The translations under genes were made by a program, and so were the position numbers. Positions 2,795-57,693 of a stretch of DNA of 64,000 bases are shown here, piece after piece. A model generated the notes under the pieces. It saw only the letters and a list, made by a program, of their open reading frames with translations. It was not told the origin of the DNA and did no database searches. Every line of letters begins with the position of its first letter. The first letter of the stretch is position 1. This stretch comes from Hyphomicrobiales bacterium (lineage in GTDB: Bacteria; Pseudomonadota; Alphaproteobacteria; Rhizobiales; Rhizobiaceae). Location of the stretch: the NCBI GenBank assembly GCA_900471515.1, contig UCFC01000010.1, forward strand, positions 434,001 through 498,000, given 5' to 3'.

Positions 2795-2863
2795 ATTGCG
2801 ATCGGGCCAAAAGCGTTTAAACCTCTGTCTTTGACTTCAGCTTTTCTGGACGACGTGAACCGC

Positions 2864-3760: not shown

Positions 3761-3764
3761 AAGC

Positions 3765-3804
3765 GAAAGACCCGCGTATTCATCAGTGAATGCGCGGGTC
3801 TTTC
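3765..3804. terminator. Bidirectional hairpin terminator
   Basis: The stem GAAAGACCCGCG pairs perfectly with CGCGGGTCTTTC over 12 bp. It continues after one mismatch with ATTCA/TGAAT and a TCAG tetraloop. It lies between two convergent stop codons (3760 and 3818) and has A-rich and T-rich flanks inside the stem, so it can serve both genes. Confidence 0.85.
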
Positions 3805-3817
3805 GTGCAAGCGGCTG

Positions 3818-4789: not shown

Positions 4790-4882
4790 CTCAATTCTCC
4801 TTTTAACGAAATCCGCCAACAATCCTTGCTGGCCCGCCGCCAACAATAGCTACTCACCGGAATCCGTTAATCGACAGAATGC

Positions 4883-4918
4883 GGAAGTTATTATTCCGAT
4901 TACTGGAATAATTATTCC
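4883..4918. promoter_or_regulatory. Paired AT-rich palindromes, likely operator of the alpha/beta hydrolase gene
   Basis: GGAAGTTATTATTCC (4883-4897) and the perfect palindrome GGAATAATTATTCC (4905-4918) share GGAA-TTATTCC ends and have centres about 22 bp apart. They lie 94-130 nt upstream of the hydrolase ATG on the minus strand in an otherwise GC-rich genome. This is the expected look of a tandem dimeric-repressor site such as MarR or TetR type; the regulator is not identified in this window. Confidence 0.45.
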
Positions 4919-5108
4919 CAAGACCGAGGCCACGACGTTACCCGACTCCGGGGTCGACACGCAGACGACAACACGATCCGCCCTAACAGTCCCGGACTGT
5001 CGTGCAGTTCCACTCGGTCATGATGTGTTATATGCATAGCGGCATCGGAGCCCACCCACCCCGATGCCAGATCAGGGGATTTAAATGGTCGAAAAGATTG
5101 CCCCCACC

Positions 5109-5540
5109 TCACCGGCCGCGGCTTCCTCGGCGACGCACATAAACCATAGTACCTCCATCGGCTCCGAGCCGGACAATGCCTGGGTCGCCGGGCGGCAGGC
5201 GGAAATCACCGCCGGCAGAGAGGGAAAAGGCGGGCATCACGCCAATGCCGGCGACGAAGAGCGCACCGACGGCAACGAGGATCCTGCGGCCGATCGGCAT
5301 CTCGACCATCATTCCACGCAGTCGCACCCGGACGAGACCAGCCGGGATGAGGAACGCCTCTCCGGCGAAAGCGACCGCATCGGTACCGGCAACCTTGATG
5401 AGGATGTACCGTTCGGCGAGCACACCGGATATCTGTAAGTGATTGCGATCGCACGCTGACAGGCTCACCGCGCCCCGCCTTCGGTCGAAAGCCGGCTCAT
5501 CATTATTGCCGCAATTGCCCTTCCGGCTGTTCCCGGCCAA
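5109..5540 (-). CDS. Doubtful hydrophobic ORF, possible gene remnant
   Basis: A 143-codon frame whose middle part is rhizobial in codon use and encodes a hydrophobic run (GRRILVAVGALFVAGIGVMP) that could span a membrane. The N-terminal 35 residues and the arginine-rich C-terminus do not look like a normal protein, and no family is recognised. It may be a decayed membrane protein fragment. The stretch 4919-5554 otherwise contains nothing I can support as a gene; the overlapping plus-strand frame at 5085-5438 is probably only its shadow. Confidence 0.2.
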   Translation of the reverse strand: MAGNSRKGNCGNNDEPAFDRRRGAVSLSACDRNHLQISGVLAERYILIKVAGTDAVAFAGEAFLIPAGLVRVRLRGMMVEMPIGRRILVAVGALFVAGIGVMPAFSLSAGGDFRLPPGDPGIVRLGADGGTMVYVRRRGSRGR

Positions 5541-5554
5541 AGTCTTTTACATGT

Positions 5555-5602
5555 GAGAAAACCTTTTCCCACTTGACAATTTTTCTGGGAAAAGCTTTTC
5601 TC
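5555..5602 (+). promoter_or_regulatory. Promoter and twin LacI-type operators of the arabinofuranoside operon
   Basis: GAGAAAACCTTTTCCC (5555-5570) and GGGAAAAGCTTTTCTC (5587-5602) are inverted copies of each other with 15 of 16 positions matching. Each is near-palindromic around a GAAAA-CTTTTC core, as LacI-family operators are. Their centres lie 32 bp apart, about three helical turns. The 16-nt interval holds TTGACA (5573-5578), so a repressor would cover the -35 and the weak -10 region near 5596. The following gene is a LacI regulator, so autoregulation of the whole operon is the simple reading. Confidence 0.75.
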
Positions 5603-5626
5603 ACCGCAAGTTCTAGGGAGGAGCGA

Positions 5627-6646
5627 CTGGACACGACGGGAGGAAAAAGAGGCAGGATCACCATCCACGATGTCGCGGCAGCGGCCGGCATCAGCATCTC
5701 GACTGCATCGAAGGCGCTGAACGACACGGGCCGGATGGGGCTGGAGACGCGAGAGCGGGTCAAGCGCATCGCGGCAGAGATCGGATACCGGCCGAACGCT
5801 CTGGCAAGGGGTCTGCTCAGCAAACGCAGTTTCACGATCGGACTTCTGACCAACGATACTTATGGCCGGTTCACGCTGCCGGTCATGGCGGGCATATCCG
5901 ATGCCCTCGTCGACCACGGTGTTTCGGTCTTTCTGTGCGCCATCGAAGAGGACCCGGCGCTGGCGCAGATTCATGTCGAGGCGATGCTCGACAAACAGGT
6001 TGACGGCATTATCGCGACAGGAAAGCGTCTGGACAGACGGTTGCCGCTCGATCTGTCGAACCTGAACGTACCCGTCGTCTACGCCTTCACGGAGGGGGCG
6101 CCGGGAAGCGTAACCTTCCGCTCCGACGATGCGCAGGGTGCGCAGCTTGCCGTCGAGTGGTTGGCAAAGCTTGGACGCAAACGCCTTGTGCATGTCACGG
6201 GGCCGGAGAGTTTCTTCTCGGTGCGCGAGCGCGCCAATGCCTATCGCAAGGTGGCGGGCGGGCAGCAGCAGGTGCTTTTCGGGGTCTGGTCCGAAAGCTG
6301 GGGCCACGAGGCGGTGGCGAAATTGTGGAGCGGCGGCGAGAGGCCCGACGGCATCTTCTGCGGCAACGACCAGATTGCACGCGGTGTCATCGACGCGCTG
6401 CGCGAGCGCGGCGTCCGGGTGCCGCAGGATGTTTCGGTGGTGGGATTCGACAATTGGGAGATCGTCGCCGCCCAGACCCGGCCGCCGCTGACAACGGTGG
6501 ACATGGAATTGAAGGAACTGGGGCGGCAGGCCGGATTGACGGTTCTGGCGCTTGCGGAGGGACGCTCGGTGGAGCCCGGCATCAGGAAACTGCCATGCCG
6601 TCTCGTCGTGCGGCAATCGTGCGGGGGTGACACCCTCGGAATATAG
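5627..6646 (+). CDS. LacI-family transcriptional repressor of the sugar operon
   Basis: A DNA-binding repressor with an N-terminal LacI helix-turn-helix (TIHDVAAAAGISISTASKAL) and hinge (GYRPNALARGL), followed by a periplasmic-binding-protein-type sugar domain. The start is unusual: the only in-frame candidates are TTG 5573, which lies inside the -35 box, and CTG 5627, which has an ideal AGGGAGGAG ribosome site 5 nt upstream. CTG 5627 is therefore taken, giving 339 residues, a normal LacI length. The gene is followed after 40 nt by the transporter genes, so regulator and regulated genes probably share one transcript. Confidence 0.9.
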   Translation: MDTTGGKRGRITIHDVAAAAGISISTASKALNDTGRMGLETRERVKRIAAEIGYRPNALARGLLSKRSFTIGLLTNDTYGRFTLPVMAGISDALVDHGVSVFLCAIEEDPALAQIHVEAMLDKQVDGIIATGKRLDRRLPLDLSNLNVPVVYAFTEGAPGSVTFRSDDAQGAQLAVEWLAKLGRKRLVHVTGPESFFSVRERANAYRKVAGGQQQVLFGVWSESWGHEAVAKLWSGGERPDGIFCGNDQIARGVIDALRERGVRVPQDVSVVGFDNWEIVAAQTRPPLTTVDMELKELGRQAGLTVLALAEGRSVEPGIRKLPCRLVVRQSCGGDTLGI

Positions 6647-6686
6647 CAACGGCGCGAAGGAGACGCGCCAACTTGGGAGGAGAGCC

Positions 6687-7925
6687 ATGATGAAGCGTCT
6701 ATTGGTGGCAACGAGCCTTGCCACACTCTGCCTGGTCTCGACGGCCTCGGCTGCCGAGAAGATCGAAATGTGGGTCCGGTCCGGAATCGGCGACGCCTTC
6801 AAGAAGGTCGTCGAGTCCTACAATGCAAGCCATGAAAACCAGGTCGTCGCAACCGAAGTGCCCTTCAGCGAACTGGTGCAGAAATACGCAACCGCAATTG
6901 CCGGCGGCCAGGCGCCTGACGCCCTTTCGATGGACCTGATCTATAACCCGGCCTTCGCCGCCGCCGGCCAGCTGGAAGATCTGACCGACTGGGCCAAGAG
7001 CCTGCCCTATTTCAATTCGCTGTCGCCGTCGCATGTCAAACTCGGCACCTACGAGGGCAAGATCTACGGTCTGCCGCTGTCTGTCGAAACCTCTGTCTTT
7101 GCCTGGAACAAGGACCTTTACAAGAAGGCCGGTCTCGACCCGGACAAGGCGCCCACGACCTGGGAGGAAATCGAAGCCAATGCGGAAAAGATCCGCAAGC
7201 TCGGCGACGACACTTACGGCTTCTATTTCTCCGGCGGCGGCTGCGGCGGCTGCATGATCTTCACCTTCACCCCGCTTGTCTGGGGCGCCGGCGCCGATAT
7301 TCTCTCCGAAGACAGCAAGACGGCGACGCTCGATACGCCGCAGATGCGCAAGGCCGTCGGCTACTATCGCGACATGGTCAAGAAGGATCTCGTCCCCGCA
7401 AGTGCGGCAAGCGATAACGGCACGAACTTCCTGACCTTCACCAACGGCAAGATCGGCCAGCAGAGCCTCGGCGCCTTCGCCATCGGCACGCTGGTTACGC
7501 AATATCCCGATATCAATTTCGGCGTGACGCTGATCCCGAGCGTCGACGGCAAGGCTTCCTCCTTTGCCGGCGGCGATAATTTCGTCATCACCAAGGGCAC
7601 GAAGAAGATCGATGCCGTCAAGGAATTCCTCGAATATATCTATTCGATGGACGGCCAGAAGGTCATGGCGAAATATGGCAGCCTGCCGACGCGCGGCGAC
7701 ATTGCCGACCAGGTCCTTGCCGGCCTCGATCCGCGCATGCAAGTGGGCCTCAAGGCGATCTCGATTGCCAAGACACCCTACACGCTGCAGTTCAACGACT
7801 TGATCAACAGCGCCAACGGCCCCTGGGCAACCTTCACCAACGCCGCAATCTTCGGCGATGACGTCGATGGCGCCTTCTCGAACGCTCAGTCCGAGATGCA
7901 GTCCATCATCGACAGCGGCCAATAA
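6687..7925 (+). CDS. ABC transporter sugar-binding protein (family 1)
   Basis: Periplasmic substrate-binding lipid-free protein that delivers a sugar to the two downstream permeases. The 412-residue protein begins with a Sec signal ending in the AxA-type site STASAAEK and continues with the family 1 solute-binding fold. ATG 6687 is paired with a GGGAGGAGA site; a second ATG follows directly. The run GGGCGGC around residues 185-192 (two Cys) is an unusual feature that may form a disulfide. Because the operon ends with a GH127 arabinofuranosidase, the ligand is probably an L-arabinose-containing oligosaccharide or glycoside. Confidence 0.92.
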   Translation: MMKRLLVATSLATLCLVSTASAAEKIEMWVRSGIGDAFKKVVESYNASHENQVVATEVPFSELVQKYATAIAGGQAPDALSMDLIYNPAFAAAGQLEDLTDWAKSLPYFNSLSPSHVKLGTYEGKIYGLPLSVETSVFAWNKDLYKKAGLDPDKAPTTWEEIEANAEKIRKLGDDTYGFYFSGGGCGGCMIFTFTPLVWGAGADILSEDSKTATLDTPQMRKAVGYYRDMVKKDLVPASAASDNGTNFLTFTNGKIGQQSLGAFAIGTLVTQYPDINFGVTLIPSVDGKASSFAGGDNFVITKGTKKIDAVKEFLEYIYSMDGQKVMAKYGSLPTRGDIADQVLAGLDPRMQVGLKAISIAKTPYTLQFNDLINSANGPWATFTNAAIFGDDVDGAFSNAQSEMQSIIDSGQ

Positions 7926-7929
7926 CTCT

Positions 7930-7968
7930 CCCGGCCGTGGGCCGGGGGACGGTGGCTGTTCCCCGGCC
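7930..7968 (+). other. Mutually exclusive intercistronic stem-loops
   Basis: CCCGGCC (7930-7936) can pair with GGCCGGG (7940-7946). The same central arm, GGCCGGGG (7940-7947), can instead pair with CCCCGGCC (7961-7968). A TTTTTT run follows at about 7985-7990, too far away for a classical terminator. Stem-loops after the binding-protein gene are common in ABC operons and protect the upstream message so that the binding protein is made in excess. Confidence 0.5.
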
Positions 7969-8007
7969 GATCCACAGACTGAGCTTTTTTAAGATGCGGA
8001 GGTTTCG

Positions 8008-8919
8008 ATGACCGGTTCCGGTCCACAGCGTACGCGCGCTGCCCGAAAACGGCGGAGGTCGCAATGGCGCGGCTTTCTTTATATCGCGCCGGCCATGGCG
8101 CTCGTCATCGTCTTCTTCGTGATGCCTGTTCTCTTCACAGGCTGGATGAGCCTGCACAACTGGCCGCTGATGGGGGCGGCGCGCTGGATCGGCTTTGCCA
8201 ATTATATCCGCATGTGGAACGACAGCCGCTTCATGGCGGCCCTGAATTTCACCGCCTACTATACCGTCATCGTGACAATCGCGATCTTTGCGGTCGCCTT
8301 CCCCCTGGCGATCTTCGTCGAGAAGGAACGCCGCTTCGTCAGCACCTACCGGACGATCATCTTCCTGCCCGTCGTGGTCGGCCTCGCAACGGCATCGCTG
8401 CTCTGGGTCTGGCTTGCCAATGTCGATAGCGGCTTCTTCGGCCCGGCCCTTCGCGCCCTCGGCCTCGTCGAGCGCAGCCCCAATATCATGGCGAGCTTCG
8501 ATACCGCCTTCGCGACGATCATCGTCATGGTCGTCTGGAAGATCGCCGGTTTCACGATGATCATTCTGCTGACCGGCCTGCAGGCCATTCCGTCCGAACT
8601 GACGGAGGCCGCCCGCATCGATGGCGCCGGCCGCTGGCAGCGCTTCCGGCACCTGACGCTGCCGCTGATGCGCAAGACGATTGCGCTGGCGCTGATCGTT
8701 TCGGTCACAGGCTCGATCCTCGCCTTCGACCAGTTCTACATCATGACCTCCGGGGGGCCGCAGAACAAGATGATCTCGGTCGTCTACTATATCTTCAACC
8801 AGTCCTTCGTATCCTTCAATCTGGGCTACGGATCCGCCCTTTCGATCGTGCTTCTGGCAATCCTGGTGGCGATCTCCATCGTCCAGCTCTGGCTGTTGCG
8901 TGTCGGGGAGGAACGTTGA
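8008..8919 (+). CDS. ABC transporter sugar permease, MalF/UgpA type
   Basis: Inner-membrane subunit of the sugar importer, 303 residues with six predicted membrane spans beginning at FLYIAPAMALVIVFFVMPV. The EAA loop that contacts the ATPase is present as EAARIDGAGRWQRFRHLTLP. A basic N-terminal tail (RTRAARKRRR) stays in the cytoplasm. Its stop codon overlaps the next permease start as TGATG, showing translational coupling. Confidence 0.93.
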   Translation: MTGSGPQRTRAARKRRRSQWRGFLYIAPAMALVIVFFVMPVLFTGWMSLHNWPLMGAARWIGFANYIRMWNDSRFMAALNFTAYYTVIVTIAIFAVAFPLAIFVEKERRFVSTYRTIIFLPVVVGLATASLLWVWLANVDSGFFGPALRALGLVERSPNIMASFDTAFATIIVMVVWKIAGFTMIILLTGLQAIPSELTEAARIDGAGRWQRFRHLTLPLMRKTIALALIVSVTGSILAFDQFYIMTSGGPQNKMISVVYYIFNQSFVSFNLGYGSALSIVLLAILVAISIVQLWLLRVGEER

Positions 8920-9782
8920 TGGTCTCCTCCAGGCAGCGGCGCGCCCGCAAGCGTTTCAGGTCGCAATCGGCCTATCATGTCGCCGGGATCGCGATCTCGA
9001 TCTTCTTCCTGGCGCCTTTCATCATCACGCTGCTCGCCTCTTTCCGGCACGGTACGGAAGCCAGCCTGCCGCCGCTGCCGCCATGGCCGACGACCGGGTT
9101 CAGCTTCGACGCCTATGCGCTGCTCGATACGTTCGGCGCCGGCATCTGGCAGCACATGATCAACTCGCTCTTCGTTTCGCTGGCGACGGTGCTGCTGACG
9201 GTCACGGTGAGCCTGCTCGCCGGCTACGGCTTCTCGCGCTACCGCTTTCCCATGAAGAACGCGCTCTTCGTGCTGATCATCGCAACGCTGATGATCCCGT
9301 TCCAATCGATCCTGACGCCGCTCTTCATCATCCTGGCGAGGCTCGGCCTCAACAATTCCCTGCTCGGCCTCACCCTCGTTTATGTCACGCTGCAGCTGCC
9401 CTTCTCCGTCTTCATGATGCGCAACGCCTTCGACGCCGTGCCGAAGGAGATCGAAGAGGCGGCGCGCATCGATGGCGCACGGGACCTTAAGCTGTTGATC
9501 CGTGTGCTGCTGCCGCTGGTGCTGCCAGGCATTGCAACGGTCGCGATCTTTGCCTTCCTCAATGCCTGGAACGAGTTCCTGGCCGCCCTCGTGCTGCTCT
9601 CCAGCAACGAGAAATACACGCTTCCCGTTCTCATGACGGCGGTGCGCGCCGGCCGCCTCGGCGCCATCAACTGGGGCGCGGTCCAGGCCGGCGTCATCGT
9701 CATGACGATCCCCTGCCTGATCGTCTTCCTGCTCCTGCAACGCTACTACATGCGCGGGCTGATGGCCGGCGCGGTGAAATAA
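8919..9782 (+). CDS. ABC transporter sugar permease, MalG/UgpE type
   Basis: Second inner-membrane subunit, 287 residues with six spans and the EAA loop EEAARIDGARDLKLLIRVLL. ATG 8919 overlaps the preceding TGA and has GGGGAGGAA upstream; the TTG just before it is not needed. With the previous permease it forms the heterodimeric channel served by the ATPase encoded at the operon end. The gap to the glycosidase gene is 15 nt. Confidence 0.93.
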   Translation: MVSSRQRRARKRFRSQSAYHVAGIAISIFFLAPFIITLLASFRHGTEASLPPLPPWPTTGFSFDAYALLDTFGAGIWQHMINSLFVSLATVLLTVTVSLLAGYGFSRYRFPMKNALFVLIIATLMIPFQSILTPLFIILARLGLNNSLLGLTLVYVTLQLPFSVFMMRNAFDAVPKEIEEAARIDGARDLKLLIRVLLPLVLPGIATVAIFAFLNAWNEFLAALVLLSSNEKYTLPVLMTAVRAGRLGAINWGAVQAGVIVMTIPCLIVFLLLQRYYMRGLMAGAVK

Positions 9783-9797
9783 CGATCTTTCAACGAA

Positions 9798-11738
9798 ATG
9801 GATGAAGCCATGAACAAGCTGAAGAGAGACCGCCAGTTCCGTCCCCTGCCCGTACCGAGCGTCGAGCTGCACGGTCTGTTTGGCGATCGCCAGGATGCAA
9901 TCTGCGATTCCACCGCCGAAACGCTGCTCGACCGCTGCGTCGAGGCCGGCATGCTGCAGGCGATCGACGTCACCCAGCCGAGCCCCGGCGTGGTCATCCC
10001 GATCGGTCCCTGGGGCGGGTCGACGCAGATGTTCTGGGACAGCGACCTCGGCAAATCGATCGAGACCGTGGCCTATTCGCTCTACCGCCGGCCCAATCCG
10101 AAGCTTGAGGCACGCGTCGATCAGATCATCGACATGTATGAGAAACTGCAGGACGAGGACGGCTATCTCAACGCCTGGTTCCAGCGCGTGCAGCCGGGAC
10201 GGCGCTGGACGAACCTGCGCGACCATCACGAACTCTATTGCGCCGGCCACCTGATCGAGGGCGCCGTTGCCTATTACCAGGCGACCGGCAAGCGGAAACT
10301 GCTCGACATCATGTGCCGTTACGCCGATTACCTGATCACCGTCTTCGGCCATGGCCCTGGCCAGATCCCCGGCTATTGCGGCCATGAGGAGATTGAACTG
10401 GCGCTCGTCAAGCTGGCGCGCGTGACCGGCGAGAAGAAATATCTCGACCTCTCCAAATTCTTCATCGACGAGCGCGGCACCGAGCCGCATTTCTTCACCG
10501 AAGAGGCCATACGCGACGGCCGCAACGCGGCCGATTTTCACCAGAAGACCTATGAATACGGCCAGGCGCATGTGCCGGTGCGCGAACAGAAGAAGGTGGT
10601 CGGCCACGCGGTGCGCGCCATGTACCTTTATGCCGGCATGGCCGATATTGCCACGGAATATAACGACGACACGCTGACGGCAGCCCTCGAAACGCTCTGG
10701 GACGACCTGACGACCAAGCAGATGTACATCACCGGCGGCATCGGCCCGGCCGCCGCCAACGAGGGTTTTACCGACTATTACGACCTGCCGAACGAAAGCG
10801 CCTATGCCGAAACCTGCGCCTCGGTCGGCCTCGTCTTCTGGGCGAACCGCATGCTCGGCCGCGGCCCGAACCGGCGCTATGCGGATATCATGGAACAGGC
10901 GCTCTATAACGGCGCCATGGCCGGGCTTTCGCTCGACGGCACGCGCTTCTTCTACGAGAATCCGCTGGAGAGCGCCGGCAAGCACCATCGCTGGATCTGG
11001 CACCATTGCCCCTGCTGCCCGCCGAACATCGCCCGCCTGCTCGCCTCCGTCGGCTCCTACATGTATGCGATCGCCGAGGACGAGATTGCCGTCCACCTCT
11101 ACGGAGAAAGCAAGGCACGCTTCGATCTTGCCGGCGCCAAGGTCGAGCTTTCACAGCAGACCCGTTACCCCTGGGATGGCGCTATCCGTTTCGACCTTGC
11201 GCTCGACCGCCCCGCTCACTTCGCGCTGTCGCTGCGCATTCCGGAATGGGCCGATGGTGCTGCGCTCTCCGTCAACGGCGAGAGGCTCGATCTGTCATCG
11301 GTGCTGGTCGATGGTTATGCCCGCATCGAACGCGACTGGAAGAGCGGCGACAGGGTCGATCTGTCCATCCCGCTGACGGCCCGCAAGCTCTTCGCCAATC
11401 CGCTGGTCCGCCAGGATGCCGGCCGCACCGCGCTGATGCGTGGCCCGATGGTCTATTGCATCGAGGAGACCGATAACGGCGCCGGACTGAACGGCATTTC
11501 GCTGTCGGCCGATGTGTCCCAGGCGAAAACGTCGGAAATGTCCGGCCTCCGCGGTGCAGTCGCCCTCGAGCTTCCCGTCAGCCGCGATACGGCCGATTGG
11601 GGTTCGGCGCTCTACCGCACCTCTCCGCCGGCGACAAAGCAGGCAAGCGCGCGCTTCGTGCCCTATCCTTTCTGGGACAATCGCGAGCCGGGCGAGATGC
11701 TCGTCTGGGTGAGAGCCGGCGAGGCGCGCGGTGAATAA
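9798..11738 (+). CDS. GH127 beta-L-arabinofuranosidase (DUF1680)
   Basis: Retaining glycosidase expected to cleave beta-L-arabinofuranosyl units, as in hydroxyproline-rich plant glycoproteins (extensin, lectins) or plant oligosaccharides. The 646-residue protein has no signal peptide, so hydrolysis is probably cytoplasmic after uptake. The zinc and catalytic residues of the characterised Bifidobacterium enzyme HypBA1 have clear counterparts here: Glu322 in NEGF, Glu338 and Cys340 in AETC, and Cys406-Cys407 in [12 protein letters not shown] 9810 (MNKLKRD) is an alternative start. The protein lies inside the ABC operon and overlaps the ATPase gene, tying import and cleavage together. Confidence 0.9.
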
Positions 11739-12819
11739 CATGGCGGATACGGGCGTTGTGCTGACCGAAATTCGCAAGAGTTTCGGCAATCTGCAAGTCA
11801 TCCATGGCATCGACCTCACCATAACGGAGGGATCCTTCGTCGTTTTCGTCGGCCCCTCGGGATGCGGAAAATCGACGCTCCTGCGCATGATTGCCGGGCT
11901 GGAAGATGTCACGGACGGGGAAATCGAGATCAAGGGCCGCAATGTCACCGATCTCGATCCTTCCGATCGCGGCATCGCCATGGTCTTCCAGTCCTACGCG
12001 CTTTATCCGCATATGAGCGTGCGCGACAACCTCGCCTTCGGCCTGAAAATGGCAAGGACGCAGGCCTCGGAGATCGAGGCCCGCGTCAAGGCGGCCTCGG
12101 CCATCCTGAAGATCGACCACCTGCTCGACCGCCGGCCGGGACAGCTCTCGGGCGGCCAGCGGCAGCGCGTGGCGATCGGCCGCGCGATCGTGCGCAAGCC
12201 GGAGGTCTTCCTCTTCGACGAACCGCTGTCCAACCTCGATGCGGAACTGCGTGTCTCGATGCGCATCGAAATTGCCAGGCTCCACCGTGAGCTCGGCAAT
12301 ACGATGATCTATGTCACGCACGACCAGACCGAAGCCATGACGCTTGCCGACAAGATCGTCGTGCTGCGTGACGGGCGGATCGAACAGGCGGGGACACCGC
12401 GCGAGATCTATGAGCGGCCCAACAATGTCTTCGTCGCCGGTTTCATCGGTTCACCCCGCATGAACCTTCTGGAGGCAAGCTGGGCAGGCGACGGCAGCAT
12501 TCTGGTGGCCGGCAACCGCATTCGCTCTCCGATCGGCGGTGCCGGCCTGACACCGGGCCAGAAGATCACCCTCGGCGCGCGACCGGAACATCTTGCTATC
12601 GTCGCCGGACCGCAGGACGAGGCGCTGCTGGCGAGGGTCGATTTCGACGAATATCTCGGCGGCACCCAATTTCTCTATTGCCAGCTTGGTGACGGTCAGC
12701 CCCTGACCGTCGAATATAGGGGATCCTCCGATATCGAGACCGGCAGCCAACTCGCCTTCAGCAGCGATCCCGCCCATCTGCATGTGTTCGATGCCGATGG
12801 CATGCGCCTCGACAAATAA
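11731..12819 (+). CDS. ABC transporter ATPase, MalK/UgpC type
   Basis: Nucleotide-binding subunit that powers the sugar importer, 362 residues. It shows Walker [11 protein letters not shown]-loop VFQSYAL, signature LSGGQRQR, Walker [12 protein letters not shown] and the switch His in [10 protein letters not shown], followed by a C-terminal TOBE/MalK regulatory region. GTG 11731 overlaps the 3' end of the glycosidase gene by 8 nt; ATG 11740 is an equally possible start. It completes a self-contained transport and hydrolysis operon. Confidence 0.93.
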
Positions 12820-46752: not shown

Positions 46753-47799
46753 ATGACGACGTCCCCTTTCGACCATCCCTTCCTTTCCGGCCTGCTTGGC
46801 GACACTGAAATCGCCGCCTATTTCTCGGCCGAAGCCGATATCCGGGCAATGCTCTCCTTCGAGGCAGCCCTCGCCCGTGCCGAGGCAATGCACGGCGTCA
46901 TTCCAGCCGAGGCCGCACGGACGATCGGCGATATCTGCGCAAACTTTGCCGCCGACGTGCACAGCCTGAAGGCGGCGACGGCAAAAGACGGCGTCGTCAT
47001 TCCCGGCCTGGTCAGGCAGATCAGGCAAGCCGTTGGCAGCGAGGCTGGTGAACACGTCCATTTCGGCGCGACCAGCCAGGACGCGATCGATACGAGCCTG
47101 ATGCTGCGGCTGAAGTCTGTCACCTTCCTCTTCGGCGGGCGCCTGCATTCCATCGTCACCGGGCTTGCCGGCCTCGAGAGGCAATTCGGCGCCAACCGAC
47201 TGATGGGCTACACCCGCATGCAGGCCGCCATCCCCATTTCCGCGGCCGACCGTATCGCCGCCTGGCGGATCCCGCTCGAAACCTATCGTGACCGGCTGAC
47301 GGAACAGACATTCCCGATCCAATTGGGCGGTGCTGCCGGCACGCTCGAAAAACTCGGCCCCGCGGCGGCGTCGGTGCGCGCCTCGCTGGCGCAGGAGCTC
47401 GGCCTGACGGAGGAACCGCAATGGCAGAGCCGGCGCATGCATATTGCCGACCTTGCCAACCTCTACTCGCTGATCACCGGCAGCCTCGGCAAATTCGGGC
47501 AGGATATAGCGCTGCTGGCGGAGGCCGGCGGCGAAATCGAGCTTGCGGGCGGCGGCGCTTCCTCCGCCATGGCTCACAAGCAGAATCCGGTCGCGGCCGA
47601 AACGCTGGTGGCGCTGGCCCGCTTCAACGCCACACAGCTTTCAGCCATCCACCATTCGCTCGTCCATGAACAGGAGCGCTCGGGTGCGGCCTGGACGCTC
47701 GAGTGGCTTGTCCTGCCGCAGATGGTGATGGCGACCGCTGCCTCGCTGCGGTTGGCGAGGGAACTTGCCGGCAATATCAGACGGCTGGGAACAGGCTGA
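46753..47799 (+). CDS. pcaB: 3-carboxy-cis,cis-muconate cycloisomerase PcaB
   Basis: Fumarase/aspartase-superfamily enzyme that converts carboxy-muconate to gamma-carboxymuconolactone, between PcaGH and PcaC. The 348-residue protein has the signature GGASSAMAHKQNPV and the HVHFGATSQDAIDT block. ATG 46753 gives the usual N-terminus (SPFDHPFLSGLLGD); ATG 46726 with an AGGTGG just before it is an alternative. It is about 100 residues shorter than some PcaB enzymes with a C-terminal tail, but a common length in rhizobia. Confidence 0.92.
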   Translation: MTTSPFDHPFLSGLLGDTEIAAYFSAEADIRAMLSFEAALARAEAMHGVIPAEAARTIGDICANFAADVHSLKAATAKDGVVIPGLVRQIRQAVGSEAGEHVHFGATSQDAIDTSLMLRLKSVTFLFGGRLHSIVTGLAGLERQFGANRLMGYTRMQAAIPISAADRIAAWRIPLETYRDRLTEQTFPIQLGGAAGTLEKLGPAAASVRASLAQELGLTEEPQWQSRRMHIADLANLYSLITGSLGKFGQDIALLAEAGGEIELAGGGASSAMAHKQNPVAAETLVALARFNATQLSAIHHSLVHEQERSGAAWTLEWLVLPQMVMATAASLRLARELAGNIRRLGTG

Positions 47800-47861
47800 T
47801 CGCCTTTGCACTCCAGCGGCAAAACCGGCTATGCAGAACCGTTGATTTCAGGAGTGCTCCC

Positions 47862-48629
47862 GTGACCTTTCCGCTCTTCGATCTTTCCGGCCGCCGCGCG
47901 CTGGTGACAGGCTCCAGCCAGGGTATCGGCTATGCGCTGGCGCTCGGCCTTGCCGAGCATGGCGCCTCGGTCATCATCAATGGCCGCAATGCCCAGAAGG
48001 CGGAGGCCGCGGCCGAGACCATCCGCGAGCAGAAACATCATGCGGTCAGCGCCGCCTTCGATGTGACGGACGCCCAGGCCAGCCGCGCCGCCATTACCTA
48101 TATCGAAGCGGAGATCGGCCCGATCGATATCCTGATCAACAATGCCGGCATGCAGTTCCGCACGCCGCTGGAGGAATTCCCGGTCGAGAAGTGGGACGAG
48201 CTTTTCCGCACCAATGTGTCCAGCATCTTCTATGTCAGCCAGCCGGTGGCGCAGGCGATGATTGCCCGCGGCCGCGGCAAGATCATCAACATCGCCTCGG
48301 TGCAGGCCGAACTCGCACGGCCGAACATTGCGCCCTATACGGCAACCAAAGGCGCGGTGCGCAACCTCACCCGCGGCATGGCGACCGACTGGGCCAAGCA
48401 TGGCTTGCAGGTCAACGCCATCGCACCGGGCTATTTCAAGACACCGCTCAATCAGGCGCTGGTCGATGATCCGAAATTTTCCAGCTGGCTCGAAACGCGC
48501 ACACCGGCCGGCCGCTGGGGCAACGTGGAAGAACTGGTGGGGGCGGCCGTCTTCCTGGCGTCGAATGCTTCGTCCTTCGTCAATGGCCATATGCTGATGG
48601 TTGACGGCGGGATCACGGCGTCGCTCTGA
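47862..48629 (+). CDS. SDR oxidoreductase, gluconate 5-dehydrogenase-like
   Basis: A 255-residue classical SDR with TGSSQGIG cofactor loop, NNAGMQFR, and the catalytic YTATKG. The start FPLFDLSGRRALVTG is typical of the gluconate 5-dehydrogenase/2-deoxy-D-gluconate 3-dehydrogenase branch. The start codon is GTG 47862 with GGAG at 7 nt. It follows pcaB after 62 nt on the same strand and may be cotranscribed, but no step of the beta-ketoadipate route needs it. Confidence 0.87.
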   Translation: MTFPLFDLSGRRALVTGSSQGIGYALALGLAEHGASVIINGRNAQKAEAAAETIREQKHHAVSAAFDVTDAQASRAAITYIEAEIGPIDILINNAGMQFRTPLEEFPVEKWDELFRTNVSSIFYVSQPVAQAMIARGRGKIINIASVQAELARPNIAPYTATKGAVRNLTRGMATDWAKHGLQVNAIAPGYFKTPLNQALVDDPKFSSWLETRTPAGRWGNVEELVGAAVFLASNASSFVNGHMLMVDGGITASL

Positions 48630-48920: not shown

Positions 48921-50600
48921 TCAATCCGCGACCATATTGCCCCGCCGCATAAGCCCCATCAGGATGAGCGGCAGCAGCGTCGTGATGCAGATGGCAATAA
49001 AGGCCATCGCCATGCCGAGGCCGATCGAACCCTGCTCGAACTGGCGCCAGATGAACGTGGCGATCGTCTGCATGCCGACAGGCGCCACGACGACGGACGC
49101 GACCAGTTCGCGCGAGGCGAGCGCGAAGACCAGCAGCATGGAAGAGGCGAGGCTCGGAAAGACGAGTGGCAGCAGGATGCGGCGGAATGCCGTCACGCCA
49201 CTGGCACCGCAGACGCGGGCTGCCGCCTCCAGGTTGTCGCCGATCTGCTGGAAGGCTGCCGTCGTGTAGCGCACCGGCTGCGGCAGCAGGATGCAGCAAT
49301 AGGCCAGCAGCAGGATGAAAGCGGTGTTGTAGGGCGTGAACGGCAGGCCCGGCATGTTCCAGGCAAGGATGAGGCCGACGGCAACGACGATGCCCGGCAG
49401 GGCATTCGGCAGGATGGTCATCACATCGATTGCCGTGCGGCCGGACATCCTGGTCTTCACCACCGTATAGGCGGCGGTCACGCCGATCAGGCCCGTTATC
49501 AGCGCCGTGCCGATGCCGAGCGAGAAACTGTTGATCAGCGCGGTCACCGCACCGGCACTGTTGTTGAAGACCGCCGTGAAATTGTCCAGGCTGACATTGT
49601 CGAAGGCGAGACCGCCGGAGATCGTGCGGGCCAGTGCCGTTGCAAGGATCGCGAGCAGCGGCACGCCCGTCGCAAGAAACGCGACGACGGCAAAAGCGAT
49701 CATGACAGGCACTTTCAGCGCGCCGAGCGGCCGTTTATCCTTGGCCGTCGGCTTGCCGCCCACCGTCTGGTAGGAGCGGCGGGCGAGAATCCAGCGCTGC
49801 AGGAGGAAGGTGACGAGCGACATGGCGACCAGCACCAGCGACAGGATGGCAGCCCCCGGCAGATCGATCGGCCAGTCGGTGACGCGCAGGTCGATGCCCG
49901 TCACCAGAACCTGAAAACCGGCGCGTCGGCCGAGCGCCGCCGGTGTGCCGTATTCTTCGATCGCAGCGGCAAAGACCAGCATCAGGCTCGCCGTCAGGCC
50001 GGGTGCCGAGAGCGGCAGCGTGATGCGCCAGAAGGCGCGCGCCGGCGAGGCGCCGAAGACGCGGCCGACATCGGCGTAACGTGCGCCGACCGCCTCGACC
50101 GTGCGCGATACGGCGAAATAGACGACCGGGAACGTGTTGAAGGCCATGACCAGCGTCATGCCGAAGATCGAAAACAGGAAGGGCGCGAGATTGAAGCCCG
50201 CAAGCTGCTGCAGATAGCCGCGCGGCTGCAGCGTCATGATCCAGCCGAGTGTCGCGATATAGGGCGGGATCATGAAGGGCACGAGCAGAAGCACGTCCCA
50301 GAGGGGCGCAAACGGAATCCTGTAGAGGGCGCGGAATACGCCGAGCGGTACGGCGACCAGCGCCGAGGCGAGCACGACGCAGCAGCCGAGCAGGATCGTA
50401 TTGCCGCCCATGCGGATCAGGGAACTGTCGGCAAGCGTTGCATAGAGCGAGGAGAAAGGGCTCGCAAACGAGCCCTGTCCGAGTTCGGGGAAAATGCCTT
50501 GCAGCACCACCGCGATGAAGGGAACGGCAACGACGAGAACGAGGCCCGCTGTTGCCAGCCAGGCGGCCGGAGCCGTGCCGCCGATGCCGTTTCCTCTCAT
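48921..50600 (-). CDS. ABC permease with two fused transmembrane domains (AfuB/FbpB type)
   Basis: A 559-residue inner-membrane protein holding two copies of the six-span permease unit, the layout of FbpB/SfuB/AfuB. Each unit carries an EAA loop, near VGRVFGASPARAFWRITLPL and EAAARVCGASGVTAFRRILL. ATG 50600 is used. It is the last gene of an operon ATPase - binding protein - permease read leftward from the Pho box near 52.75 kb. Confidence 0.9.
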   Translation of the reverse strand: MRGNGIGGTAPAAWLATAGLVLVVAVPFIAVVLQGIFPELGQGSFASPFSSLYATLADSSLIRMGGNTILLGCCVVLASALVAVPLGVFRALYRIPFAPLWDVLLLVPFMIPPYIATLGWIMTLQPRGYLQQLAGFNLAPFLFSIFGMTLVMAFNTFPVVYFAVSRTVEAVGARYADVGRVFGASPARAFWRITLPLSAPGLTASLMLVFAAAIEEYGTPAALGRRAGFQVLVTGIDLRVTDWPIDLPGAAILSLVLVAMSLVTFLLQRWILARRSYQTVGGKPTAKDKRPLGALKVPVMIAFAVVAFLATGVPLLAILATALARTISGGLAFDNVSLDNFTAVFNNSAGAVTALINSFSLGIGTALITGLIGVTAAYTVVKTRMSGRTAIDVMTILPNALPGIVVAVGLILAWNMPGLPFTPYNTAFILLLAYCCILLPQPVRYTTAAFQQIGDNLEAAARVCGASGVTAFRRILLPLVFPSLASSMLLVFALASRELVASVVVAPVGMQTIATFIWRQFEQGSIGLGMAMAFIAICITTLLPLILMGLMRRGNMVAD

Positions 50601-50611
50601 CAATCCGGACC

Positions 50612-51571
50612 TTACTTGGCGCCGTAGAGATCGGCGAAGGTCTTCAGCGTTTCCTTGCGCTTGCCGTAGACAGCGGCCGTGTCGTACTTCAGGAGCGTCA
50701 GGTCGCTGATCAGCGGACGGGAAGCGGCAACGTCAGTGCGCGACGGCATCAGCATTTCGCCGGCAACGAGTGCCTGACCTTCGTCAGACAGCATGTAGTC
50801 GATGAACTTCTTGGCGTCGTCCTGGTTCTTGGACCAGTTCATGATCATGGCCGGGCGCGGCGCGATGACCGTGCCGGACTTCGGGAACACGACTTCGATA
50901 TTCTCGCCCTTCTTCTGGGCAGCAAGAGCGATGTAATCGACAGCGCCGAAGACGACAGCCTTCGCACCCTGCAGAACCGGGTTCAGCGCGTCGGCATTTG
51001 CGCCGGCGATGATGGCGCCGTTGGCCTGCAGAGCCTTGAACAGCTTCCAGTCGTCCTGGCCGGCGAGAGCGGCGGTCAGTTCGAAGGAGGAGCCGGACTG
51101 TGCCGGGTCCGGAATGTTGACGAGGTCCTTGTATTCCGGCTTCGTCAGGTCGGCCCATTCAGCCGGCTTCGGCGTGCCGCTCTTGGTGTTCCAGACGATG
51201 CCGAGAGCCGAGATGCCCTGCGCAACGGCGCCTTCGGACTTCAGGAAATCCGGAACCTTGGCAGCGTTCGGGCTTGCATAGTTGACGAGCCAGCCGCGCT
51301 TGGCGAAGTCGTTTGCCGTATCCCAGGAAGCGGAGATGACAACGTCGACAACCGGGTTGGCGGCTTCGGCTTCGATACGGGCCATGACCTTGCCGGTCGT
51401 CGCCTGGAAAACATTGACCTTGACCCCGGTCTGCTTGGTGAAGCCGGCCGACAGCTTGTCGATCAGGCTCTGCGGGCCAGCGGTGTAAACAGTGACGTCG
51501 GCATGGGCGACACCGGCCATCAGGGCAGCGGCGACAACGCCAAAAGTGATACTCTTCAACGACTTAAACAT
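50612..51571 (-). CDS. ABC transporter binding protein, AfuA/FbpA-like, Pho-controlled
   Basis: Periplasmic binding protein of 319 residues with a Sec signal cut after VAHA (residue 24). The fold is that of ferric-iron/phosphorylated-compound binders (DPAQSGSSFELTAALAG, VVFGAVDYIALAAQ). No adjacent tyrosine pair, as used by FbpA to hold iron, is visible in the equivalent region, where a single Tyr is seen. AfuA of Actinobacillus is known to bind hexose phosphates. Together with the Pho box, a sugar-phosphate or other organophosphate ligand is likely, but this is not proved. Confidence 0.85.
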   Translation of the reverse strand: MFKSLKSITFGVVAAALMAGVAHADVTVYTAGPQSLIDKLSAGFTKQTGVKVNVFQATTGKVMARIEAEAANPVVDVVISASWDTANDFAKRGWLVNYASPNAAKVPDFLKSEGAVAQGISALGIVWNTKSGTPKPAEWADLTKPEYKDLVNIPDPAQSGSSFELTAALAGQDDWKLFKALQANGAIIAGANADALNPVLQGAKAVVFGAVDYIALAAQKKGENIEVVFPKSGTVIAPRPAMIMNWSKNQDDAKKFIDYMLSDEGQALVAGEMLMPSRTDVAASRPLISDLTLLKYDTAAVYGKRKETLKTFADLYGAK

Positions 51572-52679
51572 GTTCCACTTTCTCCTCTATGGATTGGGGT
51601 ATTTCCTGCTGAAACCAACGGATCTGCGCTGTGTCGATCACAAGGCCGATCGTCTCGCCGGCGCGCAGCTTGGCGCGGCTCAGAACCTGCAATTCCGGGC
51701 CCGGCAAGCCCGCGAGCGAAACGCTTGCCAGATGGCCGTCGCCGCGAAACTGCGAGCGCAGCACAGTCGCGGCAAGGCGGCCGGCAGAGACCTCGCCGGC
51801 CGCAATAGAGGCGACCGGGATCAGCACGCGGGCGCTGTTGCCTGCAACACCTTCGGCATCGCCGAGCACGATATCGCTGCCCTTGAAGTGCCAGACGTGC
51901 CCGCGCCGCTCGATATCGGCAAGGCAGCCAAGCCGCAGGAAATCGGCAACCTCGGGGCTCGCCGGCCGCTCGATCAGATCGTCGGGCGAGGCAAGCTGTT
52001 CGATCAGGCCGGAGCGCATGACAGCGACCTCGTCGGCCAGCGTCAGCGCCTCGCTATGGTCGTGCGTCACATAGATCGCCGTCAGGCCGAGCGTGGTGAT
52101 GAGTTCGGCGAGCTCGCCCACCATGTTTTCGCGCAACTCGCGGTCAAGGTTCGAAAGCGGTTCGTCGAAAAGGATAAGCTGCGGCTCGGCGACGATGGCG
52201 CGTGCAATCGCCACGCGCTGCTGCTGGCCTCCGGAAAGATCGCTCGGCCGCCGGTCGGCATAGGCGGACAGGCCGACGCGCTCCAGCGCCCGCATCGTCC
52301 GGGTCTGGCGCTCGGCCTTGCCGACGTTGCGCATTTCCAGCGGAAAGGAAACATTGCCGCCGACAGTCAGATGCGGCCAGAGCGCGTAATCCTGAAAGAC
52401 CATGCCAAGCCCGCGCCGCTCCGGCGGAACGAAAACGCCGGTCGCGCCATCGGCAACCATGGTAGCGGCAATCGAAACGGACCCTCTGGTCGGCGCAAGC
52501 AGACCCGCCACCAGCCTCAAGAGCGTGGTCTTGCCGCATCCAGATGGGCCGAGCAACGCCAGCGTCTTGCCTTTTTCCAGAGAAAAATCAATGCCTTTAA
52601 GGATCTGTGTCGACCCGTAACTCAATTCCAGACCTGCCGCTGCAACGGCGGAAGACGATCGAACTGAGGGGGTGTTCAT
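51564..52679 (-). CDS. ABC transporter ATPase, AfuC/FbpC type
   Basis: A 371-residue nucleotide-binding subunit with Walker [10 protein letters not shown] (Lys50), Q-loop [10 protein letters not shown], signature LSGGQQQR, Walker [13 protein letters not shown], the switch His in YVTHDHSEA and a C-terminal TOBE domain. ATG 52679 is the start; the stop overlaps the binding-protein start by 8 nt. It is the first gene of the operon, 54 nt downstream of a four-repeat Pho box. Confidence 0.92.
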
Positions 52680-52690
52680 GGGCAGACCGA

Positions 52691-52719
52691 ATGTCGCTTT
52701 AAAGAAAGTATGGCGACAT
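52691..52719. promoter_or_regulatory. Inverted repeat and -10 region in the Pho-operon leader
   Basis: ATGTCGC-N15-GCGACAT is a perfect 7-bp inverted repeat around the start region of the ABC operon. On the minus strand CATACT (52713-52708) lies 20 nt after the end of the Pho box and can act as -10. The repeat may be a second operator. Confidence 0.4.
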
Positions 52720-52732
52720 TTAGGCATCCCGT

Positions 52733-52772
52733 ATGACAGCTTTGCGACAGTTTTGCTTCAGTTTTATGACAA
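52733..52772 (-). promoter_or_regulatory. Pho box: four 11-bp repeats upstream of the ABC operon
   Basis: Read on the minus strand, TTGTCAT, CTGAAGC, CTGTCGC and CTGTCAT begin at exactly 11-bp steps (plus-strand ends 52772, 52761, 52750, 52739). The last two give CTGTCGCAAAGCTGTCAT, close to the PhoB consensus CTGTCAT-N4-CTGTCAT. Each unit is followed by an A-rich 4-mer, as in real Pho boxes. Two or more PhoB dimers could bind. Confidence 0.8.
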
Positions 52773-53121: not shown

Positions 53122-53952
53122 ATGAACAACGATCTGTTTCAGGTAAAATTTTGGGGCGTTCGGGGAAGCATCCCCGTATCAGGCCCGGAATTCGACCGAT
53201 ATGGAGGCAACACCTCCTGCATAGAAATTCGCTGCGGCGAGCACCGGATGATCTTCGACGCGGGCTCGGGACTGCGCGAGGCCGGGCTTTCGCTTCTTGC
53301 GGACGAGGTTCGCGATGTCGACCTCTTCTTCAGTCACTGCCATTACGACCACATCATCGGCCTGCCCTTCTTCAAGGCGATCTACTATCCCTCGATCAAC
53401 GTCAACATCTGGTCCGGTCATCTTGACGGCAAGATGAGCACGCGCGAGATGGTGGAGCAGTTCATCAGCCCGCCGTGGTTCCCGGTAAAGACCGATATCT
53501 GCCAGGCGACGATGAACTTCCGCGATTTCCACGCCGGCCAGACGCTGACCCCGCACAAGGGCGTCGAGATGCAGACCTATATGCTGAACCATCCGGGCGG
53601 CGCGATCGGCTATCGCATCCACTGGAAAGGCCGTATCGTGGCACTGATCTACGACATCGAGCACGTTCCGGGCACGCATGACCCGGTGGCGCTCGAGATG
53701 ATGAAGGATGCCGATCTCGTCGTCTACGATTGCACCTATAACGAAGACGAGATGCAGCGATTCAAGGGCTTTGGCCATTCCACGTGGCAGCACGGCACGG
53801 AACTGGCGAAAATGGCAGGCGCCAAGCGCTTTGCCCTGTTCCATCATGCGCCCTCGCGCACCGACCAACAGCTTGCCGTGATGGAAAGCGAGGCGCAGGC
53901 CGCCTTTGCCGGCGCCTTTGCCGCCCGCGACAATCAGGTGATCGACATCTGA
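53122..53952 (+). CDS. MBL-fold metallohydrolase, cyclic-nucleotide phosphodiesterase-like
   Basis: A 276-residue cytoplasmic hydrolase beginning FWGVRGSIPVSGPEFDRYGG, a pattern of MBL proteins related to class II cAMP phosphodiesterases and RNase Z. The metal motif SHCHYDH follows, with later ligands in MLNHPGGAIGYR, DCTYNEDEM and the HHAPSRTD end. The spacing fits a two-metal phosphodiesterase. With three nucleotide cyclase-type genes in the next 10 kb, cyclic nucleotide turnover is a tempting idea, but is not shown. Its 3' end overlaps the convergent deacetylase gene by 19 nt. Confidence 0.83.
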   Translation: MNNDLFQVKFWGVRGSIPVSGPEFDRYGGNTSCIEIRCGEHRMIFDAGSGLREAGLSLLADEVRDVDLFFSHCHYDHIIGLPFFKAIYYPSINVNIWSGHLDGKMSTREMVEQFISPPWFPVKTDICQATMNFRDFHAGQTLTPHKGVEMQTYMLNHPGGAIGYRIHWKGRIVALIYDIEHVPGTHDPVALEMMKDADLVVYDCTYNEDEMQRFKGFGHSTWQHGTELAKMAGAKRFALFHHAPSRTDQQLAVMESEAQAAFAGAFAARDNQVIDI

Positions 53953-55785: not shown

Positions 55786-55977
55786 CGCGACACTCCGCCT
55801 GTGACAGTGTGTTTACAATCGGCGCTCGCGCCGCAAGCGAAAATTTCCGCTATTGTCACTATCCTTGAACGATACAGACAGGCATACCGAAGCGATCGTG
55901 ATTAGACGAGACGATAATTCCGCCCTTTTTGGTCTTCTCTAGTGCATTTGCGATTTGAGCTTCAAGAACAGGAATTG

Positions 55978-57693
55978 ATGACGACGGTCTGGGCCACAGG
56001 GATTTTTTCGGAGCGCGCAATCAGGAAGGCCAGGCTCGGCTCCGGCCTTGTGATGTTTGTCTTCATCATCCTGCACATGTCGAACCATGCGCTGGGGCTC
56101 GTTTCACTGACGGCGGCCGACGATGCGCGCCGGTTGTTTCTGGCGATCTGGCGCAATCCGCTCGGCACCGTGGTCTTCTACGGCTCGGTCCTGGTCCACA
56201 TGTCCCTGGTACTGCGCGGGCTCTATATGCGTCGCAGCCTCGTCATGCCCAGGAACGAGATGGCACAGATCGTTCTTGGGCTTCTCATTCCGCTGCTGCT
56301 TATCGACCATGTCGTCGGCACGCGCATCGTCCATGCGCTCTACAGCTATACCGACAATTACGAGACGATCGTTCGCACGCTCTGGATCAGTTCGCCCGAC
56401 AACGGCGTGCGCCAGACGTTCGCGCTGCTTGCCGTCTGGATCCACGGCTGTATCGGCATCCACTTCTGGCTGCGCTATCGGCCCTGGTACGACAATTCCG
56501 CATCGCTGCTTCTTGCGATCGCCATCCTGCTGCCGGTGCTGGCGCTGCTCGGTTTCGTCGAAATGGGCCGCACCCTGTCCGATCCCTCCTATATCGAGGC
56601 AGAATCCGGGCACTACGAGGAAACGATCAATACGCTTTATTACAATAATCCTGATGCGCGCGCGCAAATCGCGACGATTCGCGCCGGGCTCTACGGCAGC
56701 TTCTCCGCAGCGCTTGCCCTCGTCATCCTCGCACGGGCGCGCCGGAAGCTGAAAGAGCGGACGAACCAGGTCGCGGTTCACTATCCCGGCGGCGAGACCG
56801 TGCGCGTTCCACGCGGCTTCACCGTGCTGGAGGCAAGCAGGCTTGGCGGTCTGCCGCATTATTCGGTCTGCGGCGGCAAGGGCCAGTGCTCCACCTGCCG
56901 TGTGCAGATCCTCGGCGACTACTGGACCCTGCCGCCACCGGACAAGCTGGAGCAGACGACACTGAAGCGCATCAATGCGGCACCTGACGTGCGCCTCGCC
57001 TGTCAGCTCCGCCCGGACAAGAACCTGACCGTCGCGCCGCTGCTCGTGCCGCAGACAGAGGCTGCCCTTCCCGCCAACAGCCAGGAAACCAGTCCCGGCC
57101 GCGAGCGCGAGATCGCGGTGCTCTTCTGCGACATGCGCCACTTCACAACGCTGACCGAAACCCGCCTGCCGTTCGACGTTGTCTTCCTGCTCAACCGTTA
57201 TTTCGGGATCGTCGGCAAGGCGGTGGAACAGGCAGGAGGACGACTCGACAAATTTATCGGCGACGGCGCCATGGCACTCTTCGGCCTCAACAGCACGCCC
57301 GAGGAAGCCTGCCGGCAGGCAGTGGCGGCCGCAACCACAATTGTTGCCGAAATTGAAAAGCTCGCCTCCGAACTTGCCGGCGAACTGCCCTTGCCGCTGG
57401 AGATCGTTATCGGCATCCACACCGGCCCGGCCGTCGTCGGCACGATGGGCTATGGGCGCGTGCGCAGCCTGACGGCAGTCGGCGATACGGTCAATGTGGC
57501 CAGCCGTCTGGAAACGGCAGCCAAGGAACTCAACGCCGCCATCGTCATTTCCGAGCCGGTCGCGAGGCACGCGGGCATCAATGCGGAGACGGTCGAAAGC
57601 TGCGAAATCAACGTGCGCGGCCGCGCGCTCCCCTTGAAAGTCTACGTGGTCCCGAGAGAGAAAGCGGCCGAACCGCTCAAGGAAAGACAATGA
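55978..57693 (+). CDS. cyaC: CyaC-type redox-sensing membrane adenylate cyclase
   Basis: Class III adenylate cyclase of 571 residues with three parts. First, six membrane spans resembling the diheme-b anchor of succinate-quinone oxidoreductase, with candidate heme histidines among His33, His37, His74, His111, His119, His156 and His162. Second, a [2Fe-2S] ferredoxin-like domain with Cys298, Cys304, Cys307 and Cys342. Third, a cyclase domain with metal Asp385 in FCDMRHFT and Asp429 in IGDGAMALFG. The design matches CyaC of Sinorhizobium meliloti, in which the quinone redox state controls cAMP synthesis. ATG 55978 has AGGAA. The FkbM gene start overlaps by 4 nt. Confidence 0.88.
   Translation: MTTVWATGIFSERAIRKARLGSGLVMFVFIILHMSNHALGLVSLTAADDARRLFLAIWRNPLGTVVFYGSVLVHMSLVLRGLYMRRSLVMPRNEMAQIVLGLLIPLLLIDHVVGTRIVHALYSYTDNYETIVRTLWISSPDNGVRQTFALLAVWIHGCIGIHFWLRYRPWYDNSASLLLAIAILLPVLALLGFVEMGRTLSDPSYIEAESGHYEETINTLYYNNPDARAQIATIRAGLYGSFSAALALVILARARRKLKERTNQVAVHYPGGETVRVPRGFTVLEASRLGGLPHYSVCGGKGQCSTCRVQILGDYWTLPPPDKLEQTTLKRINAAPDVRLACQLRPDKNLTVAPLLVPQTEAALPANSQETSPGREREIAVLFCDMRHFTTLTETRLPFDVVFLLNRYFGIVGKAVEQAGGRLDKFIGDGAMALFGLNSTPEEACRQAVAAATTIVAEIEKLASELAGELPLPLEIVIGIHTGPAVVGTMGYGRVRSLTAVGDTVNVASRLETAAKELNAAIVISEPVARHAGINAETVESCEINVRGRALPLKVYVVPREKAAEPLKERQ

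Follow-up and report, generated by a model that had tools for sequence, protein, structure and literature searches.

The 64,000-nucleotide stretch of DNA analysed here, referred to as the window, very probably contains a promoter that is activated by PhoB and serves three genes, which together encode a self-contained ABC importer of an organic phosphorus compound; this reading combines PhoB control with a phosphorus ligand. The promoter, conserved across families, would place an importer whose relatives are labelled as iron transporters in phosphorus scavenging. It provides a clear induction condition, narrows the search for a ligand to phosphoesters and, together with the phosphoesterase partners, brings this orphan importer within reach of a test on a short panel of ligands. 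The genome to which the window belongs is 5.99 Mb in 83 contigs, and the loci nearest to the window operon in the named collections are labelled Rhizobiales bacterium, Rhizobium or Sinorhizobium. The features of the promoter and operon are given in Table 1.

Table 1. Promoter and operon features, in window coordinates
Feature	Coordinates	Strand	Basis or remark
Four-unit Pho box	52733-52772	-	Heptamer reading, matrix score, conservation, -10 spacing
Unit 1, TTGTCAT	52772-52766	-	Fits CTGTCAY with at most one mismatch
Unit 2, CTGAAGC	52761-52755	-	Weak
Unit 3, CTGTCGC	52750-52744	-	Fits CTGTCAY with at most one mismatch
Unit 4, CTGTCAT (proximal)	52739-52733	-	Fits CTGTCAY with at most one mismatch
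Inferred -10 element, TAAATG	52717-52722	-	10 nt beyond the proximal heptamer; T 95% and A 93% at that spacing in 42 non-redundant promoters
ABC ATPase gene, afuC-like	51564-52679	-	First operon gene; start ATG 52679
Periplasmic binding protein gene, afuA-like, SBP_bac_6	50612-51571	-	8-nt overlap with the ATPase gene
Fused double permease gene, afuB-like	48921-50603	-	Two BPD_transp_1 stretches; last of the three genes
SDR gene	47703-48629		Next recognised gene downstream of the permease; opposite strand to the operon

Read on the minus strand, the site consists of four heptamers related to CTGTCAT at exact steps of 11 bp, separated by A-rich spacers (AAAA, AAAA and AAAG from distal to proximal), as the sequence-only reading had described it; unit 2 is degenerate, because only its CTG and last C match the consensus CTGTCAY. 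That reading had proposed scoring with a PhoB weight matrix. In four-unit form the site scores 26.2 bits, the top of the window, compared with 7.3 for the non-overlapping runner-up; none of 40 first-order Markov windows, a chance model distinct from exact dinucleotide shuffles, equalled this value (maximum 17.0), and the other periods (7-10 and 12-15) reach at most 13.8 in the window. Six promoters, chosen by consensus or by eye, supplied the 12 heptamers of the matrix: those of the pstS-, phosphatase-, PhoA- and NUDIX-like genes in this genome and of two further loci, L002 and L139, none of them among the 80 promoters to which the matrix was later applied. As a two-unit box the site scores 16.8, second in the window behind 17.6 at 55818, and therefore its four-unit form and its conservation carry the case. 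The higher-scoring two-unit site (55801-55818, minus strand, TTGTAAACACACTGTCAC) lies directly 5' of a glycosyltransferase start (gene at 55785) and was rejected: relatives do not keep it, and its first unit reads TTGGAAA in seven near relatives. A pattern search of the whole genome with up to three mismatches returned 576 matches versus 328 for the reversed control, and is too loose to give the window site a genome-wide rank.

Divergent from the importer operon, at 53122-53949 on the plus strand, is a gene for a metallo-beta-lactamase protein that weakly resembles models of RNase Z and of cyclic nucleotide phosphodiesterase; the seven nearest loci, together with L093, L096 and L107, have a relative of it no more than about 10 kb away. 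Further along the plus strand, 55942-57690 encodes a protein that combines a 2Fe-2S ferredoxin domain with an adenylate/guanylate cyclase domain. PADLOC found nothing in three neighbour genes.

Related loci were collected by one scan of named genomes with two peptide patterns, and the best 80 of 121 were retained, so that diverged members are under-sampled. Across these best 80 of 121 the binding protein is 69-99% identical to that of the window, and the loci come from Rhizobium, Neorhizobium, Agrobacterium, Shinella, Mesorhizobium, Brucella/Ochrobactrum, Ancylobacter, Hoeflea, Pleomorphomonas, Rhodobacterales and others, including some MAGs. The order ATPase, binding protein, permease is found in 79 of them, and the contig of the remaining one (L100) stops before the permease. 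A comparison of the same promoter in related genomes, likewise proposed from the sequence, finds the 11-bp repeats kept: in the 400 nt upstream of the operon (209 nt for L092), 75 of the best 80 loci have a two-unit Pho box scoring 12 bits or more and 77 have one scoring 10 bits or more, levels that 2000 shuffles, likewise first-order Markov, reach in 1.15% and 4.35%. The promoters under 12 bits are those of L062, L063, L111, L113 and L128, with L111 and L113 under 6. When periods from 7 to 15 are compared in 81 promoters (the 80 and the window), the 12-bit level is attained by 76 at period 11 and by no more than 16 at any other. Within the genus the binding protein of the operon (E <= 1e-80) occurs in 35 of 100 genomes, and in 4 of 61 genomes of the family. 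Among distant members, the box scores 17.6 bits in Sodalis and 6.9, 10.1 and 0.1 in Paracoccus, Klebsiella and Comamonas, so that only Sodalis reaches 12; the unannotated Klebsiella ATPase start was placed as in Sodalis, and the Comamonas upstream stretch sits inside a porin gene that may belong to the operon.

What surrounds the operon is far less constant. Apart from the three operon genes and their other-frame ORFs, no gene family is widely common to the flanks of the 80 loci, judged on families present in at least four loci and at least three lineage groups; the next most widespread are generic ABC permeases in 7, 6 and 4 of the 80 loci, and no functional neighbour common to all lineages was found in these flanks. 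Since the flanking genes differ among lineages, box and operon have been kept together while their surroundings changed. At the level of sequence this is seen in Rhizobiaceae, Brucella/Ochrobactrum, Ancylobacter and some Rhodobacterales. It is extremely unlikely that the repeats match by chance and have no PhoB function: unit 2 is degenerate and the window has one other two-unit site with so high a score, but period, position and -10 spacing are conserved across lineages with different flanks.

The -10 element was assigned from the promoter alignment. Of the 81 promoters, 74 could be anchored (all except L062, L063, L111, L113, L120, L128 and L130), and 42 of these, at most 65% alike, give the consensus TGTCAC-N4-CTGTCAT-N10-TA, in which the TA of the predicted -10 follows exactly 10 nt past the box and the tandem 11-bp heptamers appear in the place of the -35 element. 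The number of consecutive units in the anchored promoters is two in 47, three in 9, four in 17 and six in 1, and the median distance from heptamer end to matching start position is 49 nt. For translation, ATG 52679 fits better than the in-frame upstream ATG 52727: relatives have start codons at the position matching 52679, and the inferred -10 is downstream of 52727. Start positions in related loci were extrapolated from the alignment; at the extrapolated position of residue 1, a start codon is found in 54 of the 80 loci (ATG in 50, TTG in 4), and in 41 of the 49 whose alignment begins there. With the start supported in this way, the proximal heptamer is 53 nt from the ATG, which corrects the 54 nt to the first start codon given earlier.

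The genome has its own phoB gene (342.3 bits versus a family cut-off of 296.2), and boxes of the same type precede its pstS-like, phoA-like, phytase/phosphatase-like and NUDIX genes, named by eye from their translations. A second AfuA-type operon in this genome (L002) also has a Pho box. Phosphate control of the importer promoter is therefore a well-supported prediction: the PhoB control that the repeats had been taken to imply is in line with the conserved box in related loci, the fixed -10 spacing and the phoB gene. Under phosphate shortage, phosphorylated PhoB would bind the repeats as dimers, one on units 3-4 (proximal) and one on units 1-2 (distal), and would recruit sigma-70 RNA polymerase, with transcription expected to start some 30 nt upstream of ATG 52679. 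In the periplasm, the binding protein would then capture a phosphoester. An imported phosphodiester could be cleaved in the cell by a phosphodiesterase, which in some relatives would be encoded in the same operon and in others may be encoded elsewhere.

What might the importer carry? Tandem tyrosines are the iron ligands in FbpA ferric-binding proteins. The structural model of the window binding protein (mean pLDDT 89.9) has as its closest fold AfuA with glucose-6-phosphate (Z 35.3, rmsd 2.2 over 297 residues), followed by VcA0625, titled a glucose-6-phosphate binding protein (Z 35.1), and P5PA, a pyridoxal-5-phosphate binding protein (Z 34.1). The best iron-protein match is HitA, with Z 32.7. 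A shared fold by itself shows no function, and we looked at the ligand residues in 40 aligned proteins, those of the window and of 39 of the 80 loci. Asp212-Tyr213 aligns with the two adjacent tyrosines of the Campylobacter jejuni ferric-binding protein (1y4t), with Asp in 40 of 40. A ferric iron importer under phosphate regulation, for example using ferric phosphate as a joint source, is very improbable: relatives carry the annotation iron ABC transporter permease and the fold is common to ferric-binding proteins, but the closest folds bind phosphoesters and one of the paired tyrosines is replaced. Because the importer, for all the iron labels of its relatives, has a well-conserved phosphate-starvation switch, its cargo is most likely a phosphorus compound and not iron. 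The sequence-only reading had come down on the same side, and the fold neighbours, the Asp residue and the phosphoesterase genes described below agree with it. Nothing points to inorganic phosphate as the cargo, and an organic phosphoester is the likelier ligand.

The residues that contact the sugar phosphate in AfuA bear on which phosphoester this could be. In a profile alignment, AfuA S37, H205, D206 and E229 correspond to Thr59, Val211, Asp212 and Ala237, and all 40 proteins have these four residues (the numbering of the AfuA PDB chain was taken as 2 ahead of that in the paper). In a single-sequence alignment H205 falls on Asp212, D206 on Tyr213 and E229 still on Ala237, a one-residue shift of H205 that restores no His. 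At the position of AfuA T150 there is Ser161 in 29 of 40 and Ala in 11 of 40, and Trp83, Asp84 and Arg239, among others, are constant within the group of the window protein. Alanine mutants of AfuA H205, D206 and E229 lost glucose-6-phosphate binding, according to the available text of PMC4546632. A hexose-phosphate importer like AfuABC of Actinobacillus would have the closest fold and the constant Thr59 in its favour, but it is improbable with the essential H205 and E229 replaced in all 40 proteins. The fold neighbours, taken with the replacement of two of the three sugar-binding residues, therefore suggest that a phosphoester-type fold was kept and the hexose contacts were lost.

An importer of phosphonates such as 2-aminoethylphosphonate, similar to PhnS or AepX, seems unlikely, although less so. 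In NCBIfam the three operon proteins match best to PhnS2 (binding protein), PhnT2 (ATPase) and PhnU2 (permease), AepX and AepS also carry PF13343 (available text of PMC8316502), and since phnJ (C-P lyase) is present at two loci in the genome, phosphonates keep some probability. Against this, the binding protein falls far below the curated cut-offs for PhnS/PhnS2 (113 of 392.75 and 89.2 of 395.3 bits), no phnW passes its cut-off in the genome (as in 0 of 14 control genomes), no phosphonate gene family was seen by eye to recur beside the operon in the 80 loci, and the neighbours that do recur are phosphoesterases. In the same genome, a GpdQ-like phosphodiesterase homologue (33% identity) is located about 3 kb from the second phnJ, in C42:42848-47584.

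The recurring phosphoesterase genes lie behind the permease in 16 of the 80 loci and are of three kinds. Five encode metallo-beta-lactamase proteins and begin 3-7 nt past the permease stop (two Rhizobium, three Ancylobacter), three encode GpdQ-like phosphodiesterases and overlap the permease by 4 nt (two Hoeflea, one Pseudotabrizicola), and eight encode PhoD after a gap of 121-138 nt (five Rhizobium, three Rhizobiales; in L069 in two pieces). In Paracoccus aminophilus, the gene behind the permease encodes a metallophosphoesterase. Among solved structures, the best relatives of the GpdQ-like protein are 2zo9 and 2dxl, which we take to be GpdQ, and its best NCBIfam match, SpdA, is far under the cut-off. 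PhoD has a Tat-like start of the exported type (by eye), and box-like stretches before it are weak (6.5 to 9.5 bits in six loci examined); with the longer gap, these eight genes need not form one operon with the importer. With three queries, there was no match behind the permease in 64 of the 80 loci, L092, L100, L104 and L124 being too short there, and the operon of the window has no phosphoesterase gene, so the link to phosphodiesters is one that we infer.

The metallo-beta-lactamase enzyme also leads to a sister clade of importers. Relatives of it occur in 25 plasmid records, of which nine regions were examined. In seven of the nine its gene is found together with genes for a sister-clade AfuA-type binding protein and permease, and in six of those seven also with an ATPase gene and a histidine or dual-specificity phosphatase gene; in the two unannotated regions, tblastn places a sister-clade importer near the enzyme in L159 and gives only ATPase-type matches in L158. 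In L105, a Hyphomicrobiales MAG, two AfuA-type importer operons of different clades stand back to back (2634-12650), and the sister operon includes metallo-beta-lactamase and dual-specificity phosphatase genes. The enzyme (E <= 1e-50) is present in 2 of 100 genus genomes, in both with the window-type operon (35 genomes) and adjoining that operon. Sister-clade Pho boxes are clear in L152 (three units) and L156 and partial in L155, not convincing in L151, L153, L154 and L157, and absent on the side of the sister operon in L105.

In the light of these partners, we tentatively suggest as the ligand a phosphodiester such as a deacylated phospholipid head group, a preference over monoesters and phosphonates that is drawn from gene neighbourhood alone. 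It is possible, if somewhat speculative, that PhoB-controlled AfuA-type importers feed intact phosphodiester to a co-transcribed cytoplasmic phosphodiesterase, which could be the small metallo-beta-lactamase protein with beta-CASP-like motifs or the GpdQ-like enzyme, and that the sister clade works with a phosphate-releasing phosphatase. This would be a scavenging route not described before in Alphaproteobacteria.

How does the window importer compare with known systems? AfuABC of Actinobacillus pleuropneumoniae has the same fold and three-part make-up; in the profile alignment Thr59 and Asp212 of the window protein stand at the positions of S37 and D206, and H205 and E229 are replaced. Unlike the predicted control of the window operon, Pho control is not mentioned in the available parts of the AfuABC literature. 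The AepXVW, AepSTU and PhnSTUV importers have Pfam PF13343 in common with the window protein (available text of PMC8316502), which differs in scoring below the PhnS/PhnS2 cut-offs and in coming from a genome with no phnW over its cut-off. For Sinorhizobium meliloti, afu-type operons had been put forward as PhoB targets. The precedent exists: the available text of PMC8829014 reports strong induction of SMc04316/SMc04317 under phosphate stress and gives them a Pho box and a predicted role in iron transport. Among PMC5127829, PMC8829014, PMC5082522, PMC12501420 and PMC10132767, it is the only one whose available text speaks of an afu-type Pho target, and the Phaeobacter Pho regulon table in PMC10132767, in the part available, lists no iron-type transporter.

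That precedent is a different operon. The S. meliloti Pho-target prediction reportedly comes from Yuan et al. 2006, and we take LZK74_27260 to be SMc04317, from its neighbours (cold-shock genes, rpsU and ftsZ). Both the presumed SMc04317-SMc04316 and the window operon are AfuA-family importers with a Pho box (two-unit, by eye, for SMc04317), but the presumed SMc04317 protein has 34-36% identity to the window binding protein, and its operon runs binding protein-permease-ATPase followed by a HAD-IIB gene, in contrast to ATPase-binding protein-permease in the window. The two fall into different groups and do not pass as orthologues at about 34% identity, the genome having a separate counterpart, the L002 binding protein, 72% identical to the presumed SMc04317. 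L139 (CP090106.1), titled pSymB and 3.7 Mb in length, has rpsU and ftsZ beside its SMc04317-like operon and looks like a mislabelled chromosome. The window promoter itself is rather ordinary in kind, a well-conserved, predicted PhoB regulon member before an orphan importer, and the interesting part is the ligand and the phosphodiesterase link. E. coli-type Pho promoters, such as those of pstS, ugpB and phoA, have 11-bp heptamer repeats in place of the -35; the window promoter has the same repeats in the same place and differs from them in gene content only.
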